From assembly GCA_017434885.1 (NCBI GenBank), contig JAFSGE010000005.1, positions 410,314-474,313 of the forward strand: 64,000 nt of DNA, written 5' to 3'. The notes under the pieces were generated by a model. That model did not search any database, was not told the DNA's origin, and was given only the letters and a program-made list of their open reading frames with translations. Positions 46,986 to 54,308 of this stretch are shown piece by piece (the first letter of the stretch is position 1; each line of letters starts with the position of its first letter). This DNA is from Lachnospiraceae bacterium (GTDB lineage: Bacteria; Bacillota; Clostridia; Lachnospirales; Lachnospiraceae). Made by a program: the position numbers and the translations under genes.

Positions 46986-47753
46986 CTATGCTTTGATTTT
47001 GTAAGTTGCCGTCAAAGTTTTTTCTGCCTCTTCGCCGAGGTCCTCATGCAACACTCTTTCATATACAATTTTCTCATGCACCAGACATAAATCCATAAAG
47101 CACAGAAAAATACCAATATCAATCCGATTATAATAAGAAACCTGCACCGCCGGCATAATCCCACGCTTTCCCGGCTTCTTATATCGGAAGACTCTTAATT
47201 CATTTCCTATATTTTCTACCAGCCAGGGCTGTGTATTGCAGGCACTTGGCGCAAACCTGACAACATCTGACACTCCTGTCACAAGTTGCCCATTCCATAT
47301 TTCGTCTAGAGGCTTCCGTTTACTTTTAAACATATCCTTGCGGAACTTTTTCTCATCATTTATTTTTGATATTGCAATCATAATCACAAAATCAAGTCCC
47401 TCAAAAAGCTGCTCCTCTACCTTGCCGATTCCAAACCACAAAGTTCCGATATTACGGGAAACCAGATATAAATCAAGCTGCTCTCCCAAATAACCGATGT
47501 TTTGCAGATAGCCTTCCTTCTTTTCACTGTAAAGCAGGATACAGTACTCCTGTCCACGTTTGCAAGTGGTTTCGCAAGATGGAACAATTCTGATTGCGGT
47601 CTGTATCTCCGGACAAAGCGGCACAAATGTCTTGTATGTTTCCTCTATCTCGCGCAATTCTTCTTCACTGATTCTTTCTTCACCAATATTTCGGAACAAG
47701 TGAAAGGATTTGCGCTTAAAAATCATGTCATAAAACAATTCTTCACGCTTCAT
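46986..47753 (-). CDS. Nitroreductase-family FMN oxidoreductase
   Basis: A 255-residue protein of the nitroreductase fold: the first half has the FMN phosphate region (FKRKSFHLFR) and the second half holds APSACNTQPWLVEN, the FMN/substrate motif typical of the family. It resembles the duplicated NiRdase type in which both halves sit in one chain. It lies immediately before the radical SAM gene. Substrate unknown. Confidence 0.85.
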   Translation of the reverse strand: MKREELFYDMIFKRKSFHLFRNIGEERISEEELREIEETYKTFVPLCPEIQTAIRIVPSCETTCKRGQEYCILLYSEKKEGYLQNIGYLGEQLDLYLVSRNIGTLWFGIGKVEEQLFEGLDFVIMIAISKINDEKKFRKDMFKSKRKPLDEIWNGQLVTGVSDVVRFAPSACNTQPWLVENIGNELRVFRYKKPGKRGIMPAVQVSYYNRIDIGIFLCFMDLCLVHEKIVYERVLHEDLGEEAEKTLTATYKIKA

Positions 47754-47845: not shown

Positions 47846-48250
47846 TTATTTCAGCAATTCATCTGTAAGACGAAGAATTTCAGGTGTAATCCTTTCACGC
47901 TCTTTTTTCGCGATACGATAATAAACAGGATAAGCAGCACCTACGAGAACAATCCCCACAAGACCGATAATAATACCAAGCAGCATTCCCATACTACCGT
48001 GCAGTCCCAACTTCTCACCCAAATCGGTCATTGCCAGGCTCATTCCGCTGCCCATAATTAGTGCGCCTATGATACCGCTTGCAAGAGAAGCTGTTGTAGC
48101 TTTTTGATTGACACTTGCATCCAGCCTGCGTAATCTGGTCAATTTATCTTCTTCCTGAGGCTGATATTTCTGGCGTATTCTTTTCACTTCCTCTTGCTCT
48201 GTTGCAGAATAAGTATAGCTGAAACCTTCTTTTTTATTTTTAGCTTCCAT
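47846..48250 (-). CDS. Two-TM protein, paralogue 1 of the family in this cluster
   Basis: A 134-residue protein. N-terminal FSYTYSATEQEEVKRIRQKY and a KLTRLRRLD helix, two TM segments (about 55-75 and 87-108) with the motif IMGSGMSLAMTDLG between, and a C-terminal helix ITPEILRLTDELL. Two closely related proteins are encoded at 52662-53030 and 53126-53512. No known family. It ends the operon RR-HK-membrane protein, 8 bp after the membrane protein gene. Confidence 0.75.
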   Translation of the reverse strand: MEAKNKKEGFSYTYSATEQEEVKRIRQKYQPQEEDKLTRLRRLDASVNQKATTASLASGIIGALIMGSGMSLAMTDLGEKLGLHGSMGMLLGIIIGLVGIVLVGAAYPVYYRIAKKERERITPEILRLTDELLK

Positions 48251-48258
48251 TGTAATCG

Positions 48259-49158
48259 TTACTCCTTTTTAAGTTCTTTGTATTCCCGAATCTCTTTCGT
48301 TGTGCAGACAATCATATATACTGCCATTGTGACTACTATTACACTGATTCCTGCTCCTGTTGCCATAATCATAATCCGCTGTGATTCAGGAGATGTATCT
48401 CCCCCGAACTGTGAAAACATTGCTGTTTCCAAAAAAAGCATGGAAAACAATGCTGCTGCCATCTTAATCACCTTAGTAACAGACATAATAGGGCTCTTAA
48501 ATTTCCGATATTTAATCATATCGATAACAGCTGTCGTAGTAATATAAAAGGTATACAATGCCATCACATAAATCAAAATGCCCTGATATTCAAAGCCCCG
48601 GTTATAATATATCATCATGAGCACTGCCCCTGACAAAGCAAGGTTTACCGTCATTAAGATATAAGCGCATAACCTGGCGCGTTTCAATTCTCCCATGCGG
48701 CTTGTGCCGATATGATTTTTCGTCACATAACGGGCCAGTAAAAACCGCACAATCGCCATAATGGCATAGTAAATTGCAAAAATTCCGAACCAATATGTGC
48801 TGAAAACAATTCCCGAAACAGCATTGATTACAATATAAATCAAATTAATTGTCAGAGAACGATAAAGGGTTACATGGGTTTTAAATACCGCATCCGTCAG
48901 ATATCGGTTCGCATATTTATTACCGTACACCTTCCCTTTGATACTTTTGTAATATCCCGGAATTGTCTTGTAGCATGCAATACAAATTGTCATAAGCGTA
49001 TAAAAGGAAAGGACATATATCACATAAGCGATAGGTGTAGTATCCCATCCCTTTGCAAAAACAGTAACAAGCAGCACCGTACTGATAACCGTCAAAAGAA
49101 CTACCAGCCATAGCGGCAAAACCAGAAGTCTGCCACATATCTTTTTCCAACTTTTCAT
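48259..49158 (-). CDS. Polytopic membrane protein of the two-component operon
   Basis: A 299-residue protein with about six to eight TM segments, no recognised transporter or enzyme motif. ATG at 49158 is chosen over the longer frame because CGGAGG lies just ahead; this also leaves only one base after the kinase stop codon. The tail CTTKEIREYKELKKE is cytoplasmic and basic/acidic. Sandwiched between the kinase and paralogue 1, it may work with the kinase as a sensor partner or be the output of the system. Function unknown. Confidence 0.7.
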   Translation of the reverse strand: MKSWKKICGRLLVLPLWLVVLLTVISTVLLVTVFAKGWDTTPIAYVIYVLSFYTLMTICIACYKTIPGYYKSIKGKVYGNKYANRYLTDAVFKTHVTLYRSLTINLIYIVINAVSGIVFSTYWFGIFAIYYAIMAIVRFLLARYVTKNHIGTSRMGELKRARLCAYILMTVNLALSGAVLMMIYYNRGFEYQGILIYVMALYTFYITTTAVIDMIKYRKFKSPIMSVTKVIKMAAALFSMLFLETAMFSQFGGDTSPESQRIMIMATGAGISVIVVTMAVYMIVCTTKEIREYKELKKE

Positions 49159-49159
49159 A

Positions 49160-50233
49160 TCAAATCCTCCGGAATCTGACTGTAAAAGCGCTTCCTTTTC
49201 CCGGCGAACTTTCCACACTGATTTCACCATGTAAAATATCTACTACTCTCTTTACCAAAGCAAGTCCCAATCCGTTTCCCTGTGTTGCATGGGAAGTATC
49301 ACCCTGATAAAATTTCTCGAAAATGTGAGTGCCTACTTCCGAAGTCATACCACAGCCCGTATCCTTTACCGTAACAATCGCATGATGCTCCGTTGCCTCC
49401 AAAATAACCGATACCTTACCACCTTCAGGGGTAAACTTGAATGCATTGGAAAAAAGATTATTCCAGACAAGAGAAAGTAGCTCACTATCGGTATTTACCT
49501 TTACCCCTTCTGCAATTTCTGTTTCAATTTCAATATCTTTCTTTTCCCATACGTTTTCATAACCAAGCAGACACTCACAAAGCTGCTCCCCTAAGTCATA
49601 TTCCTCTGTTTTGGGGTAAATCTGCTGCTTCTCAAGTCGGTTCAGCTTTAAAATATTTGTCATCATATCGGCCAGACGGCGAGAGCCGTCAGTAATGCCC
49701 TTTGCGTATTCGATGCGCTTCTCTTCCTCCAAATCCGGTGCCTGCAAAAGCGTACCATAATTCTGTATCACCGCAAGAGGGGTTTTCATTTCATGGGATA
49801 CATTGGCAATAAAGTCCGTACGAAGCGTTTCAACGCCTGCCAGCTCTTCCGTCATGGCATTAAAGCAATCAATAATTTCAGCAAACTTCTCGTCTGCACC
49901 CAATCGGCTTACCAGAGCAATCCGTACACTAAAGTCTCCCTGTACCACCTTTTTTGCTGCTTCGGCAATCCGTTTCGTAATTCGCTCTGTTGTGAATTTT
50001 CTACGCACAGCATCAATCACAGTAAAAAGAACACTCAGCAAAACTACATTAAAAAAGGTCAGCTTCGCTGCCACGTTTACATTTTCTTCCGTCAGTTCAA
50101 TCTGCAGCGTATCGGTTAATGTTGAGACAAACAGCATAGTGGAACAGGTAACAAGAAATGCCACCAACAAAAAAAACAATAAATAATTGAAAATACCACG
50201 AAAAATTTTATGACTTAAGTCTGTCTGTTTCAT
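49160..50233 (-). CDS. Sensor histidine kinase
   Basis: A 357-residue kinase: two TM segments (about 15-40 and 58-75) with a very short extracytoplasmic loop (about 17 residues), HAMP-like region, HisKA motif FIANVSHEMKTPLAVIQNY (His147), N box NNLFSNAFKFTPEGG, and G1/G2 boxes DTGCGMTSEVG and GNGLGLALVKR. The short loop argues for sensing within the membrane, as in LiaS/BceS-type kinases. Start codon overlaps the RR stop (ATGA). Confidence 0.95.
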   Translation of the reverse strand: MKQTDLSHKIFRGIFNYLLFFLLVAFLVTCSTMLFVSTLTDTLQIELTEENVNVAAKLTFFNVVLLSVLFTVIDAVRRKFTTERITKRIAEAAKKVVQGDFSVRIALVSRLGADEKFAEIIDCFNAMTEELAGVETLRTDFIANVSHEMKTPLAVIQNYGTLLQAPDLEEEKRIEYAKGITDGSRRLADMMTNILKLNRLEKQQIYPKTEEYDLGEQLCECLLGYENVWEKKDIEIETEIAEGVKVNTDSELLSLVWNNLFSNAFKFTPEGGKVSVILEATEHHAIVTVKDTGCGMTSEVGTHIFEKFYQGDTSHATQGNGLGLALVKRVVDILHGEISVESSPGKGSAFTVRFRRI

Positions 50234-50901
50234 TTGAATACCGCCTTATATCCCAGTCCGTGAACAGTTACGATTTCAAAGTCATTACAATCCGAAAGTT
50301 TCTGCCGAAGCTTAGTCATATATACATCCACTGCCCTTGGTGCCGTTTCCGTATCCGCATCCCAAAATTCATCCATCAGCTGGGTCCGGGTAAAGGTCTT
50401 CTTAGGGTACGACAGCAGCTTGTAGAGAATACTGAACTCACGGTTCGTCAAGGATATCTCTTCATCGTTCAAATAAGCAGTATGCTCATCCGCATCCATC
50501 ACGAAGCTGCCGATTTCCAGTTTTCTGCTTGCCGCAATCTTCGCCCGCCTAAGAAGTGCACCGATTCGCAGAAACAATTCATCCAAATCAATAGGCTTTA
50601 CCATATAATCATCCACACCGATACGGAAGCCTCTCTGCTTGGAAGCAATATCATCACGTGCCGTCATAAAAAGAATAGGAATGTCCTCATTCAATTCACG
50701 GACATTACTTGCAAACTCAAACCCATCAATTCCGGGCATCATAATATCCGATACGATAAGGTCAAACATTTTATCAGCGAGTGCGTCATAAGCATCGGTT
50801 GCATTCAGACAGCCGGTTGCCTCGTATCCTCTGTGATTCAAAAAAGAACATACCGTTCTGTTTAGCTCTTTGTCATCTTCTACCACTAATATCCTAAACA
50901 T
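50230..50901 (-). CDS. OmpR-family response regulator
   Basis: A 223-residue regulator. Receiver domain with the acidic pocket VVEDD (Asp9, Asp10), phosphoacceptor Asp52 in IVSDIMMPGIDG, and Lys in YMVKPIDL; then a winged helix with SLTNREFSILYKLLSYPKKTFTR and AVDVYMTKLRQKLS. The longer frame upstream is rejected: the ATG at 50901 has AGGAGG at standard spacing. 4-bp overlap with the kinase gene. Related 11-bp repeats lie just upstream of its -10, so self-control is likely. Confidence 0.95.
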   Translation of the reverse strand: MFRILVVEDDKELNRTVCSFLNHRGYEATGCLNATDAYDALADKMFDLIVSDIMMPGIDGFEFASNVRELNEDIPILFMTARDDIASKQRGFRIGVDDYMVKPIDLDELFLRIGALLRRAKIAASRKLEIGSFVMDADEHTAYLNDEEISLTNREFSILYKLLSYPKKTFTRTQLMDEFWDADTETAPRAVDVYMTKLRQKLSDCNDFEIVTVHGLGYKAVFK

Positions 50902-50932
50902 CTTTACAACCTCCTGTAATTTACCATAATAC

Positions 50933-50975
50933 ATTATATATCTTAGCAAACAAATGTTAAAGTTTTGTTTACATA
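50933..50975 (-). promoter_or_regulatory. Promoter of the response regulator with 11-bp repeats
   Basis: TATAAT (minus, 50938-50933). Two 11-bp repeats (plus-strand reading) follow: ATGTTAAAGTT (50954-50964) and TTGTTTACATA (50965-50975). The same half-site is found at the other promoters of this cluster, but here the phase to the -10 box differs (15 rather than 8 or 19 bp). Confidence 0.5.
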
Positions 50976-51029
50976 CATGGAAAAATACCAAGGTAAATCA
51001 CTTTTTTATTATATTACATACATAAGCTG

Positions 51030-52595
51030 TTACAGCATCGGTGCAAATATCCTGACTATCGCACAAATAAACCGTTGCAATAAATTTGTTTTAAGCATAT
51101 CCGTTGTAACCTCTATGCACTTTTCAAAGGTGTCTTCCATGTCTGCTTTTAGTAATTTTATGGCATCACACCGATACATCCATACACCATTCTCAAAGTG
51201 ATGTACCAGACTGCGGTAGTCCAGATTAATGGTTCCAATCATTGCATAGGTATCATCAGCAAGATAACTCTTTGCATGGACAAAGCCCAGTTCATATTCG
51301 TATATCTTCACTCCTGCTGCCATCAACCGATGGTAGAAACTCCGCGTCATGGCAAATACCAGTTTTTTATCGGGTATATGCGGAACGATGATTCTTACAT
51401 CCACGCCACGGAGTGCCGCATTTTCAAAATCCGTACACAAATCATTATCTATAATAAGATACGGCGAAGTCATCCAGACATGGTGGGTAGCACCGGAAAG
51501 CATATTCTGAATGACACTTTTACCAACCCGACGTTCATAAAGCGGACGGGGTCCGTCTCCGAATGGAATCATATACCCTTGCTCACTAACATCCGGTTGT
51601 GCCGGATATAAATCACTTCTTACTCCCGATAATTTCTTTATATTGATTCCAAAGTCCACAAGAAACAGTTTGGTCAGCTCCCATACGGCTTCCCCTTCAA
51701 GTCTGAGAGCTGTATCTTTCCAGTGTCCGAATTTCACAACCTCATTAATATATTCATCTGCAATGTTCACACCGCCGGTATACCCAACCTTACCGTCAAT
51801 TACCGTTATCTTTCGGTGACTGCGATTATTAAATTCACTGTCTGCATTTCCCCGTAGTCTGGAAAACGGTGTTGCTTCAATACCATAGGTTTTCAGTATT
51901 TTGTGGTAATCACCGGGCAAAGTCATCATACAGCCGACATCATCATACAACACCTTTACTTCAACTCCCGCTGCCGCCTTTTTCTTAAGAATATCCAATA
52001 TGGAGCTCCAGAATTTTCCTTCCTCAATAATGAAATACTCCATATAAATAAACTTTTCTGCCGCTTCAAGATCAGTCAACATACGCTGATGCATATCCTC
52101 ACCAAGCGAAAAATATTCCTGCTTCGTATTTGTAAATAAATGTGTTTCTGCAATCCTGCAAAGCATTTTTGCCTGTGCGACGGCAACCGGATTCTCTTCC
52201 TGCAATTTGACAAACAGCTCTTTGTCATCCTGCCTATATGTATGACTTTTCAAATCGTTCAGGCGCTTGATAAACCTTCTTTGCAATTTTCTGGAGTAGA
52301 ACAAAAAATACAACATAAATCCGGCTATCGGAACAACCAATACCAAAAGTAGCCAAGGCACCTTATAGTCCGGGTTATCATCGGATGCAATGATTCGAAT
52401 GACACAGAAAAATTCTGTAGCCCAGGCTGCCAGATAAAAATACGGCACATAATAGCACATTGCAATTACAATACCGATAACCGCAAGCACTTCAAACAAT
52501 GTAATAAACACTGCAATAATATACCTTACCGGAATATAATCAATCTCCCGCTGAACCGCTTTTTGATTTACATCATAAGTTATTATTTTCTTCAT
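51030..52595 (-). CDS. cls: Cardiolipin synthase-like phospholipase D
   Basis: A 521-residue enzyme with two N-terminal TM segments (PLDc_N; about 23-80) and two HKD motifs: HRKITVIDGKVGYTGGVN and HAKSYLADDTYAMIGTINLD (HxKxxxxD). It should join two phosphatidylglycerols to cardiolipin at the inner membrane. ATG at 52595 has GTGAGG in front. It sits 128 bp before the response regulator gene and in the same direction, so a membrane-lipid output of this system is suggestive. Confidence 0.93.
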   Translation of the reverse strand: MKKIITYDVNQKAVQREIDYIPVRYIIAVFITLFEVLAVIGIVIAMCYYVPYFYLAAWATEFFCVIRIIASDDNPDYKVPWLLLVLVVPIAGFMLYFLFYSRKLQRRFIKRLNDLKSHTYRQDDKELFVKLQEENPVAVAQAKMLCRIAETHLFTNTKQEYFSLGEDMHQRMLTDLEAAEKFIYMEYFIIEEGKFWSSILDILKKKAAAGVEVKVLYDDVGCMMTLPGDYHKILKTYGIEATPFSRLRGNADSEFNNRSHRKITVIDGKVGYTGGVNIADEYINEVVKFGHWKDTALRLEGEAVWELTKLFLVDFGINIKKLSGVRSDLYPAQPDVSEQGYMIPFGDGPRPLYERRVGKSVIQNMLSGATHHVWMTSPYLIIDNDLCTDFENAALRGVDVRIIVPHIPDKKLVFAMTRSFYHRLMAAGVKIYEYELGFVHAKSYLADDTYAMIGTINLDYRSLVHHFENGVWMYRCDAIKLLKADMEDTFEKCIEVTTDMLKTNLLQRFICAIVRIFAPML

Positions 52596-52619
52596 GGTAC
52601 ACCTCACAAAACCAACAAT

Positions 52620-52645
52620 AGCGAGACACCTTCCGGTGCCTCGCT
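52620..52645. terminator. Hairpin between paralogue 2 and cls
   Basis: AGCGAGACACC / GGTGCCTCGCT (52620-52630, 52635-52645) with one mismatch and a 4-base loop. There is only a weak T-tract, so it may be a partial terminator, giving less cls than the genes before it. Confidence 0.5.
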
Positions 52646-52661
52646 GTTCTATCAGATTTCT

Positions 52662-53030
52662 TTATTTTTCACCTATAATTTCATCACTAAGCTTCATAAT
52701 TTGGTCAGCATACTTTTTTCTTCTGGATGCAAGAATACCCTTATGCATAGGATAATTTATAATTGCCATCAGCATACCTACAACTCCAATAATAATACCG
52801 GGAGCCATTGTTTCCTTCATACCAATGGTTGATCCAATGTCTGTCATAACAAGACTCATTCCGCTTCCCATAATAATGGCACTGATGCTACCGAATATAT
52901 AGGCGAATACATTTGCCGGACGCTTCACCTTCGCATCCAGTTCCTTCAGCGCATCCAGCTGCGTATGTTCCTTTTCTGTGTATTGTGTACGGATTTTTTG
53001 TACAAGAAATTCCTGATCCTCTCTGTTCAT
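52662..53030 (-). CDS. Two-TM protein, paralogue 2
   Basis: A 122-residue relative of the proteins at 47846-48250 and 53126-53512. The same GSGMSLVMTDIG motif between the TM segments (about 42-62 and 76-96), a YPMHKG loop, and a C-terminal helix with IMKLSDEI. The N-terminal FSY segment of the other two is missing. It has its own promoter with in-phase 11-bp repeats (53064-53110) and an AGAGG ribosome site. Confidence 0.72.
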   Translation of the reverse strand: MNREDQEFLVQKIRTQYTEKEHTQLDALKELDAKVKRPANVFAYIFGSISAIIMGSGMSLVMTDIGSTIGMKETMAPGIIIGVVGMLMAIINYPMHKGILASRRKKYADQIMKLSDEIIGEK

Positions 53031-53063
53031 CGTGATTACCTCTTTCTGTTTTATTATGAGCTC

Positions 53064-53110
53064 ACTATAAGATACTCATGTTTCTGAATGTTTCATAAAA
53101 TGTTTCTGAT
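53064..53110 (-). promoter_or_regulatory. Promoter of paralogue 2 with ATGTTTC repeats
   Basis: TATAGT (-10, 53069-53064 minus strand). Plus-strand reading: ATGTTTCTGAA (53078-53088), a one-base-offset copy ATGTTTC at 53088, and ATGTTTCTGAT (53100-53110), 22 bp after the first. The first repeat begins 8 bp from the -10 box. No good -35 is present, as for an activator-dependent promoter. Confidence 0.6.
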
Positions 53111-53125
53111 TTATTAAAATACAGC

Positions 53126-53512
53126 TTACGCTTCTCCCGAAAGCTCCTCTGTTAATGCAAGGATTCTTGGTGCATACTTTGCCTTGGTCTTATCAAAAAC
53201 AGCCCGATATAGGGGATAAGCAGCCATCATGGCGGCTATGCCAATCATTCCCACAATTACGCCCAAGGCTATTACAAGCACGCCGCTTGCAAATATCTGC
53301 ATCGCAAGGCACATACCCAAACCAAACACCAAAAGACCGCCTATCCCCGCACAAAGAGCTTCTATCATTCCTGAATTTTGAACCACTCTGTCAAGCCGCT
53401 TGAGTTCATCAAGCTTACTTTCACTTTGGGGCAGATACTTCTTACGGATTTCCTGCACCTCTTTATTTTCTTTTGCCGAATACTTGTAGCTGAATGTATT
53501 TTCCCGGTTCAT
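53126..53512 (-). CDS. Two-TM protein, paralogue 3
   Basis: A 128-residue relative. The N-terminus FSYKYSAKENKEVQEIRKKY closely matches paralogue 1 (FSYTYSATEQEEVKRIRQKY); then KLDELKRLD, two TM segments (about 52-73 and 76-98), and AAYPLYR near the second. The GSGMSL motif is relaxed to GLGMCLAM. It lies 20 bp downstream of the 71-residue gene and is co-transcribed with it. Confidence 0.72.
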   Translation of the reverse strand: MNRENTFSYKYSAKENKEVQEIRKKYLPQSESKLDELKRLDRVVQNSGMIEALCAGIGGLLVFGLGMCLAMQIFASGVLVIALGVIVGMIGIAAMMAAYPLYRAVFDKTKAKYAPRILALTEELSGEA

Positions 53513-53532
53513 TTCTGTTCTCCAAACGCTGT

Positions 53533-53748
53533 CTATTCTTCACCGGAAAGTCTTTTCTTCGCTTCTTCAACGGTTTCGCCCTCTTTGGCAAAGAGCTTTT
53601 CTACACACTTATCCGTTACCTTGTTAAAACCCTCAACGGCACCCTGCTCGATTTTTTTGTAGCCTCCTACTACACCATCTTCAATTTTCTTGTAGCCTTC
53701 TACTACAGCCTCTGCGATTTTTTCATTTACTTCTACTAATTTTGACAT
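53533..53748 (-). CDS. 71-residue protein with 11-residue amphipathic repeats
   Basis: Three consecutive 11-residue units at 14-46: AVVEGYKKIED, GVVGGYKKIEQ, GAVEGFNKVTD. Eleven-residue periodicity is the mark of amphipathic helices lying on lipid surfaces (as in synuclein and LEA-type proteins). It ends in ETVEEAKKRLSGEE. No TM, no signal. The clear AAGGAG site, the short promoter with repeats at 53783-53829, and conserved spacing support a real small gene. Function unknown; membrane binding is inference. Confidence 0.8.
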   Translation of the reverse strand: MSKLVEVNEKIAEAVVEGYKKIEDGVVGGYKKIEQGAVEGFNKVTDKCVEKLFAKEGETVEEAKKRLSGEE

Positions 53749-53782
53749 TATAATTATCTCCTTTTCTCGATTTTATGGTTTA

Positions 53783-53829
53783 ACTATACTTTACAATTGT
53801 TTGTAAGTTTTTTAAGAAATGTTTCTGTT
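53783..53829 (-). promoter_or_regulatory. Promoter of the 71-residue gene with 11-bp repeats
   Basis: TATAGT (-10, 53788-53783 minus strand). Eight bp further, three in-phase units (plus-strand reading): TTGTTTGTAAG (53797), TTTTTTAAGAA (53808) and ATGTTTCTGTT (53819). Same layout as the promoters of paralogue 2 and of the zinc-ribbon gene. Confidence 0.6.
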
Positions 53830-53872
53830 TTATTAATTTTCTCATTTTTTTGTTTCGCCGGACATCGTAGTA

Positions 53873-54220
53873 CTATGCTTCTTTTAAGCTTGTACCGCAT
53901 GCACCGCAATATTTCATGTCAGCCGATGTTTTGGCTCCGCACTTCTGACATACTACCGTGGTTTTTATTTTCTCCCTCTTTAATGTGGAAATCACTTCTT
54001 CCGCTTCTTTGATGGCTGAATATCTTTCCATGATTTCGGGACACATTTCCTCTCCGGCTTCTAATCTGACTAAAGTAAGATTTCCTATTTCTTTTGTTAA
54101 TACCTTAATCTTCTTCTGCTGCTCGGCAATCTTTCCATCTGCCTTACAATTATCAACACCATTTTTCATGCTTTTTGTGAATTTTGCCATTCCGGCATTT
54201 ACTGTACCTGTAAAACTCAT
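53873..54220 (-). CDS. Coiled-coil/zinc-ribbon protein
   Basis: A 115-residue protein. An N-terminal amphipathic region (1-28), a helical coiled-coil zone (about 30-88) with KIAEQQKKIKVLTKEIGN, and a C-terminal zinc ribbon with Cys91, Cys94, Cys105 and Cys108 (CQKCGAKT and CGACGTSL). No known family name. RBS AAGGAGG, own promoter with four in-phase repeats (54251-54308). First gene of the cluster in transcription order. Confidence 0.8.
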   Translation of the reverse strand: MSFTGTVNAGMAKFTKSMKNGVDNCKADGKIAEQQKKIKVLTKEIGNLTLVRLEAGEEMCPEIMERYSAIKEAEEVISTLKREKIKTTVVCQKCGAKTSADMKYCGACGTSLKEA

Positions 54221-54250
54221 TTGAGCTACCTCCTTGTATTTGATGATTTG

Positions 54251-54308
54251 ATTCTACAGGCGTTTTGTTTGGGGAATGCTAAAGAAATGTTTCTGAAATG
54301 TTAAACTT
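54251..54308 (-). promoter_or_regulatory. Promoter of the zinc-ribbon gene with four 11-bp repeats
   Basis: TAGAAT (-10, 54256-54251 minus strand). After 8 bp, four consecutive units (plus-strand reading): TTGTTTGGGGA (54265), ATGCTAAAGAA (54276), ATGTTTCTGAA (54287), ATGTTAAACTT (54298). This is the cleanest array in the window and fits tandem binding by an OmpR-type regulator. Confidence 0.7.

Follow-up and report, generated by a model that had tools for sequence, protein, structure and literature searches.

The block analysed here spans positions 47846..54308 of a 64,000-nucleotide (nt) stretch of Lachnospiraceae DNA, the whole of which is referred to as the window, and it consists of nine genes, all located on the minus strand. 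Read along that strand, they encode ZnR (53873..54220), a 115-residue helical protein with a C-terminal four-cysteine zinc ribbon; S71 (53533..53748), a 71-residue helix made of 11-residue repeats of the GYKKIEDGVVG type and lacking any transmembrane (TM) segment; P3 (53126..53512), a small membrane protein in which an N-terminal charged stretch is followed by a TM hairpin with a GxGM motif; and P2 (52662..53030), a small two-TM protein of the same P family, with TM segments 45-63 and 73-91 by hydropathy. These are followed by Cls (51030..52595), a cardiolipin synthase with both HKD motifs kept, by the OmpR/PhoB-type response regulator RR (50230..50901), by HK (49160..50233), a two-TM, short-loop histidine kinase, by Poly (48259..49158), a 299-residue eight-helix membrane protein, and by P1 (47846..48250), another small two-TM member of the P family and the last gene of the RR-HK-Poly-P1 unit.

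A preliminary description of this DNA had proposed a two-component membrane module, and at the level of the individual genes its content was borne out. All nine genes were located on one strand and in the order given. A search of the genome from which the window derives, referred to as the own genome, returned P1, P2 and P3 as the only members of a paralogous family (fourth row, E 0.05); in P3 the hydropathy rule called a single TM segment. The zinc ribbon of ZnR matched PF13240 (Zn_Ribbon_1) just above the Pfam cut-off (28.2 bits, cut-off 25; Cys 91, 94, 105 and 108), while Cls exceeded the curated cut-off of TIGR04265 (323 bits, cut-off 290), with HKD motifs at 260 and 440. RR matched PF00072 and PF00486 and retained the motifs SDIMMP, TAR and KPID, and HK matched PF00512 and PF02518 and retained SHEMKTPL. 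The HK TM segments, at 18-36 and 58-76 by hydropathy, leave 21 residues between the two 19-mers, the loop of about 17 residues originally described being the product of slightly different trimming; a pair of TM helices with so short a loop agrees with the intramembrane-sensing kinases. Two TM segments were called in 28 of 45 HK homologues, with gaps mostly of 15-22 residues, and a simple hydropathy rule gave another count in the remaining 17. The 11-residue periodicity of S71 was equally clear, as Lys, Gly and Val/Ile/Tyr recur in fixed phase and 119 of 120 successive motif spacings in the homologues examined are exactly 11. No Pfam or NCBIfam family was found above its cut-off for S71, P1-P3 or Poly.

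The genes of the block are connected by a common operator. Genome contigs were scanned with S71, giving matches in at least 368 relatives, and the best 80 loci were kept, many of them cut by contig ends. A matrix was then derived from 72 S71 upstream regions of other loci (65 non-redundant, 56 sites used), its training leaving out the window and keeping L035, a locus whose S71 is 96% identical. The consensus, TTAACAAAAC-t-cAAACATTTct-CAAAaAnnTC-nAAACAA followed by a -10 box, corresponds to four 11-bp direct repeats. On both strands of the 64 kb the best site lies at the S71-P3 promoter (53791..53838, minus strand, score 46.3), where a TATAGT -10-like box follows, the second best at the ZnR promoter (54259..54306, minus, 38.0) and the third at the P2(-Cls) promoter (53072..53119, minus, 32.2); the fourth-best site scores only 8.0. 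A sequence-only model applied to the 3.1-Mb own genome, with 150 of 2917 first-look candidates scored, returned the same three sites (E 1.6e-8, 6e-8 and 1.1e-6, respectively), the next having an E of 0.08.

The association of the operator with these genes extended to the relatives. The 80 loci, 981 kb in all, contained 116 sites above a score of 22, and the reversed control contained none, with a maximum of 10.4. The operator precedes 61/71 S71, 5/5 ZnR, 14/41 P2 and 11/29 P3 genes, and in its four-repeat form it was found before none of 51 RR and none of 51 HK genes and before 5 of 718 other genes. When 29 S71 loci from genomes of the window's family were searched, a site was present in 27 at E <= 0.1 and in 23 at E <= 0.001, and 25 of the 27 site sequences do not occur in the 80 training loci. 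Altogether 35 of 40 genomes with the module carry the operator (29 of 34 with S71 and 6 of 6 with Poly and no S71 hit), and it was found in none of 40 control genomes devoid of any S71, Poly or P match, the controls having been taken in listing order and not randomly. In one genome (G250) two separate long contigs carry S71 and Poly, and each gene has an operator to itself; the operator thus follows the genes even when they are dispersed. We regard this shared private operator as direct evidence at the sequence level that supports co-regulation of the module.

Two further arrangements of the operator were noted among the relatives. A 19-kb stretch of locus L177 (G104:C1:1710000-1729000) contains six operator-like sites, with scores of 14.9-35.7, together with S71, Poly and P genes, and may represent an expanded regulon. 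At position 8971 of L069 and position 6873 of L084 the gene that directly follows the operator encodes an SDR protein of HpnA-like type (similar to hopanoid-associated sugar epimerases), which suggests glycolipid change as a possible output in some relatives.

RR is preceded by a shorter version of the same element, consisting of two repeats and an extended -10 (50944..50970, minus strand). A two-repeat scan of the window gave the three full operators and the RR promoter as its four best sites. The window sequence, AAACAAAACTTTAACATTTGNNTGNTA, is unique in the own genome even when as many as 3 mismatches are allowed (backward control, 0), and the aligned RR promoters read AAACAAAACTTTAACATTTGnnTGnTATAAT. 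Judged by eye, the two-repeat arrangement precedes 36 of 47 RR genes examined, the remaining 11 belonging to a distant form with RR inside an S71-led gene run. Of 3000 random 220-bp stretches taken from the loci, 81 also reach the low score threshold of 8 applied here, and true sites may be present in some of them.

Tandem direct repeats near the -35 position of the target promoters are the mark of operators of OmpR/PhoB-type systems, and such repeats were found here; RR is predicted to recognise them, as judged from their co-distribution. The best NCBIfam names, PhoB for RR and PnpS for HK, and the fact that PHO boxes are 11-nt direct repeats (PMC4415409) would agree with a phosphate-starvation (Pho) system reading PHO-like boxes. 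However, both scores fall far under the cut-offs (173 bits against 270 for PhoB, 203 against 400 for PnpS), six further kinases of the own genome score higher than HK against PnpS, and the full operators of the own genome are confined to the module locus. On these three grounds the phosphate system was rejected, and we consider it scarcely credible.

The co-inheritance of the genes was then evaluated by calling gene presence in the 80 loci with profile and sequence searches. S71 was present in 79 loci, P in 69, RR in 48, HK in 46, Poly in 44, Cls in 16 and ZnR in 5, with S71, P, RR, HK and Poly all present in 41; 62 loci extend 5 kb or more past S71 on the downstream side, and 40 of these have all five. 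P, Poly, RR and HK matches lie on the strand of S71 in 246 of 254 cases. Two arrangements could be distinguished, a classic one, S71-(P3)-P2-(Cls)-(ABC)-RR-HK-Poly-P1, and a distant one, S71-P-Poly-RR-HK-P-like. P1 follows Poly in most of the classic-form loci listed. Directly behind P1 in the window lies a gene for a TM1586-type nitroreductase (46986-47753, minus strand), which P1 likewise precedes in the relative L044. In three loci (L064:8645-8941, L052 and L058) the block encodes another small helical protein, highly charged and 98-162 residues long, and the one copy scanned matched no Pfam family.

Among 299 genomes of the window's family, S71 was found in 43, Poly in 48 and P in 66 at E <= 1e-10, a threshold of our choice for P, which matches 89 genomes at E <= 0.001. 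Joint presence reached 25 genomes against 6.9 expected for S71/Poly, 33 against 9.5 for S71/P and 42 against 10.6 for Poly/P, with Fisher p between 2e-12 and 1e-27, and the use of P and Poly profiles built from S71-adjacent copies may somewhat favour this co-occurrence. In 299 genomes across the phylum S71 was present in 7, and P (E <= 1e-9) in 6, all of them among those seven. S71, P and Poly are also present outside the family, where no RR was called in the stretches fetched; several of these stretches are short (3.7 kb for L170, 8 kb for L169), which makes the absence of RR a weak finding, and in L173 a kinase-like open reading frame lies about 5 kb from a P-Poly pair. Because of this occurrence outside the family, S71, P and Poly look like the effector and the conserved heart of the module. 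Carriage as plasmid or phage cargo was rejected, since S71 matched none of 72,556 plasmid and 50,697 phage records at E <= 1e-5.

Taken together, synteny, co-occurrence and the private operator uphold the proposal of a two-component membrane module that is self-contained, co-inherited and composed of unnamed proteins, and the small genes do recur with the two-component pair in relatives, the check that the preliminary description had itself set. Its composition has to be amended, as the core genes recur and Cls and ZnR are only accessory (16/80 and 5/80 loci).

Poly had been described simply as a polytopic membrane protein; it is polytopic, and its fold does not appear to be an arbitrary one. 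When a structural model was aligned by VIA-align with 412 Foldseek-ranked chains, the C-terminal 210 residues (88-299) were modelled as the six-TM CDF zinc-transporter (ZnT/YiiP) fold without metal ligands. Two N-terminal helices are found in addition to those of CDF proteins, and nothing follows TM6, which leaves Poly without the CDF C-terminal domain. At the sequence level, 30 Poly members matched no CDF family at E <= 1, a PDB sequence search gave nothing at E <= 10, and hhalign of Poly to FieF returned a probability of 0.05%. The metal site of CDF proteins is formed by Asp/His of TM2 and TM5. In Poly, TM5 is free of Asp and His in 27 of 30 members and TM2 has no conserved one, as seen in a helix-level check and not by superposition. 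Poly as a working CDF metal transporter, and the module as a metal-stress response, are thereby made very improbable: metal transport was rejected on the missing TM2/TM5 residues, the C-terminal domain is lacking, and ZnR, the zinc-ribbon protein, occurs in just five of the 80 loci. In E. coli K-12 (L183, 4103500-4107500) the CDF gene fieF has the envelope-stress genes cpxP and cpxRA as neighbours, an arrangement that parallels that of Poly next to RR-HK, possibly by coincidence.

As for the smaller membrane proteins, P has 122-123 residues and no N-terminal stretch in loci of the distant form and in those from outside the family (L110:8309-8677, L169:6474-6845), and there it looks like two P hairpins in tandem. 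Some P-like proteins may be called dihydropteridine reductase in databases; a literature search had no paper using this term among its matches.

S71 matched no PADLOC family, its repeat strings did not occur in the literature searched, and its best PDB sequence matches (E 0.1, mostly a coiled-coil viral protein) were discarded as chance. In one genome (G438) Poly and S71 are fused in a single open reading frame. The features of S71 that bear on a membrane-bound helix are its 11-residue repeat and this fusion to a membrane protein, and lipid binding is a prediction.

The remaining genes of the block and of its relatives bear on the kind of stress that might be involved. Cls has the features of a cardiolipin synthase, including an N-terminal TM pair, and is predicted to have that activity. 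A hairpin of eleven pairs with a T-poor tail (52620-52645, minus strand) lies between P2 and Cls and is possibly an attenuator that sets the amount of Cls made from the P2 promoter. Anti-phage defence was tried as an explanation and rejected, as PADLOC gave only DrmC-type phospholipase-D and one MkoB model for Cls and none for the other six proteins given.

Of the 80 loci, 17 contain both an ABC-2 ATPase and a permease, mostly as two tandem pairs within the block, and no ABC gene was found in the block of the window. The two ATPases tested found their best match in lantibiotic-protection ABC proteins (203 and 202 bits), under the cut-off of 309.75; the permeases of relatives measure 133-294 residues (median 275), and the one scanned matches ABC-2 families. 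These pairs raise the question of a narrow immunity to bacteriocins or antimicrobial peptides, in which HK would sense peptides, the ABC pairs would export them, and S71, P and Poly would be immunity proteins. Their tandem arrangement, the lantibiotic-type match of both tested ATPases and the use of short-loop kinases by such systems, as described in PMC3023708 and PMC4314665, speak for it. Nevertheless, the window block has no ABC gene, 63 of the 80 loci have no pair (many of them cut by contig ends), and the ATPases score under the family cut-off, so that we judge this explanation rather unlikely, if deserving of serious attention.

Similarly, the presence of Cls in 16 loci, the operator-led HpnA-like epimerase gene in two and the coating of lipid surfaces by eukaryotic 11-mer repeat helices (PMC5889406) could be read as lipid homeostasis or developmental membrane remodelling unrelated to damage, with S71 coating the membrane and Cls supplying cardiolipin. 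With S71 in 43 of the 299 genomes of the family, the distribution is patchy, which is more in keeping with an accessory stress system than with a core developmental one, and we hold remodelling to be improbable.

We favour, as moderately probable, a membrane-stress regulon under two-component control, in which Poly, P and S71 form the effector and to which Cls and peptide-type ABC exporters are variably added. A role in sensing and repairing membrane damage, as originally proposed, is suggested by the company that the genes keep, namely the short-loop kinase, Cls, the ABC-2 pairs, the 11-mer helix and the membrane effectors. HK, sitting among the membrane partners Poly and P1 encoded in the same unit, would sense that the membrane or a partner protein is disturbed, its trigger being perhaps membrane-active peptides or other amphiphiles. 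It would phosphorylate RR, a chemistry for which the motifs are intact, and RR would in turn bind the tandem array of 11-bp repeats, which overlaps the -35 position. The four units at the ZnR, S71-P3 and P2-Cls promoters would give strong induction of the effectors, and the two units at the RR promoter a weak self-induction. S71 would then act from the cytoplasmic side with Poly, a CDF fold devoid of a metal site, and with the P hairpins, in a membrane-protecting assembly; we infer an S71-Poly-P complex because of the fusion, the adjacency and the co-occurrence of the three. Cls would change the lipid composition, and other genomes would add the peptide-type ABC exporters.

Several observations weigh against this regulon or against parts of it. 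Recognition of the operator by RR is deduced from co-distribution, RR was not found in 18 of the 62 loci having at least 5 kb downstream of S71, and at E <= 0.001, under stricter filters, no operator was found in 5 of the 34 genomes with S71. The hairpin between P2 and Cls may uncouple Cls from the other targets. The CDF fold of Poly comes from one model with nil sequence support, the helical moment of S71 at 98 degrees is only moderate (0.376, where 5000 shuffles gave a mean of 0.128 and a maximum of 0.449), and a second Poly-S71 fusion was not found in the family (20 genomes) or class (43 genomes) of G438. Finally, the membrane-stress function itself is deduced from the accompanying genes.

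The module thus appears to be of the two-component membrane-stress kind, with an effector that may be categorically new. More tentatively, and with considerable doubt, we propose that Poly, as a CDF fold without its metal site, serves as a membrane scaffold or sensor in which a synuclein-like S71 replaces the cytoplasmic domain and the P hairpins are arranged around it, and that in one family this assembly came under a dedicated two-component system with a code of four repeats for the effector and two for the regulator. If Poly were indeed a metal-free CDF scaffold with an 11-mer helix, a transporter fold would have been turned to membrane sensing. The conserved module has a complete cis-regulatory code and includes three protein families (S71, P and Poly) without a match above the cut-offs of Pfam and NCBIfam, and its predicted regulon in the own genome comprises just four promoters. 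The habitat of gut Clostridia contains bile acids, bacteriocins and host peptides, and the clostridial envelope-stress two-component systems that we found described, CprKR, DraRS and HexRK, are all from C. difficile, as covered in PMC10601699. No paper describing the module was found in the literature searched, a coverage that excludes most subscription journals.

A logic comparable to that of LiaFSR or Psp, built with different proteins, had been anticipated for the block and agrees with our results. As in those systems (PMC3543457, PMC11237479), small membrane proteins and a membrane-associated helical protein are under the control of an envelope-stress response, two-component in the case of Lia, and an accessory membrane protein is found beside the kinase. 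Unlike them, the module relies on an OmpR/PhoB-type regulator and 11-bp repeats, and it has S71, P and Poly for effectors; membership in Lia or Psp was rejected, as no PspA/LiaH, PspC, Toastrack or LiaI-LiaF-TM family was found among the nine proteins at E <= 1 in Pfam.

Other two-component systems that counter membrane-active peptides, by controlling peptide exporters or a change of lipids, are BceRS-BceAB, GraRS-VraFG, E. faecalis MadRS, C. difficile CprK-CprABC and DraRS/HexRK (PMC3023708, PMC4314665, PMC10614854, PMC10601699). In contrast to these, the exporters of the module are optional, of ABC-2 type, mostly in tandem pairs and absent from the window, whose block does not contain the ABC exporter with a large extracytoplasmic permease loop that characterises BceRS-BceAB, and proteins like S71, P or Poly are not named in the descriptions of those systems that were consulted. 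Poly differs from the CDF proteins ZnT and YiiP/FieF by having no detectable sequence similarity or metal ligands, by its two extra N-terminal helices and by the absence of the C-terminal domain, in the place of which S71 stands in the one fused protein.

The 11-mer amphipathic helices of alpha-synuclein and perilipin offer a parallel to S71. Its near-perfect 11-residue helical repeat resembles theirs (PMC5889406), whereas S71 is bacterial, has few repeats and is tied to membrane partners, and homology is not claimed. Lastly, the operator is similar to the PHO boxes of PhoB/PhoP, tandem 11-nt direct repeats bound head to tail (PMC4415409), and is distinguished from them by its AAACAWWWC core and by the use of four units before the effectors and two before RR.

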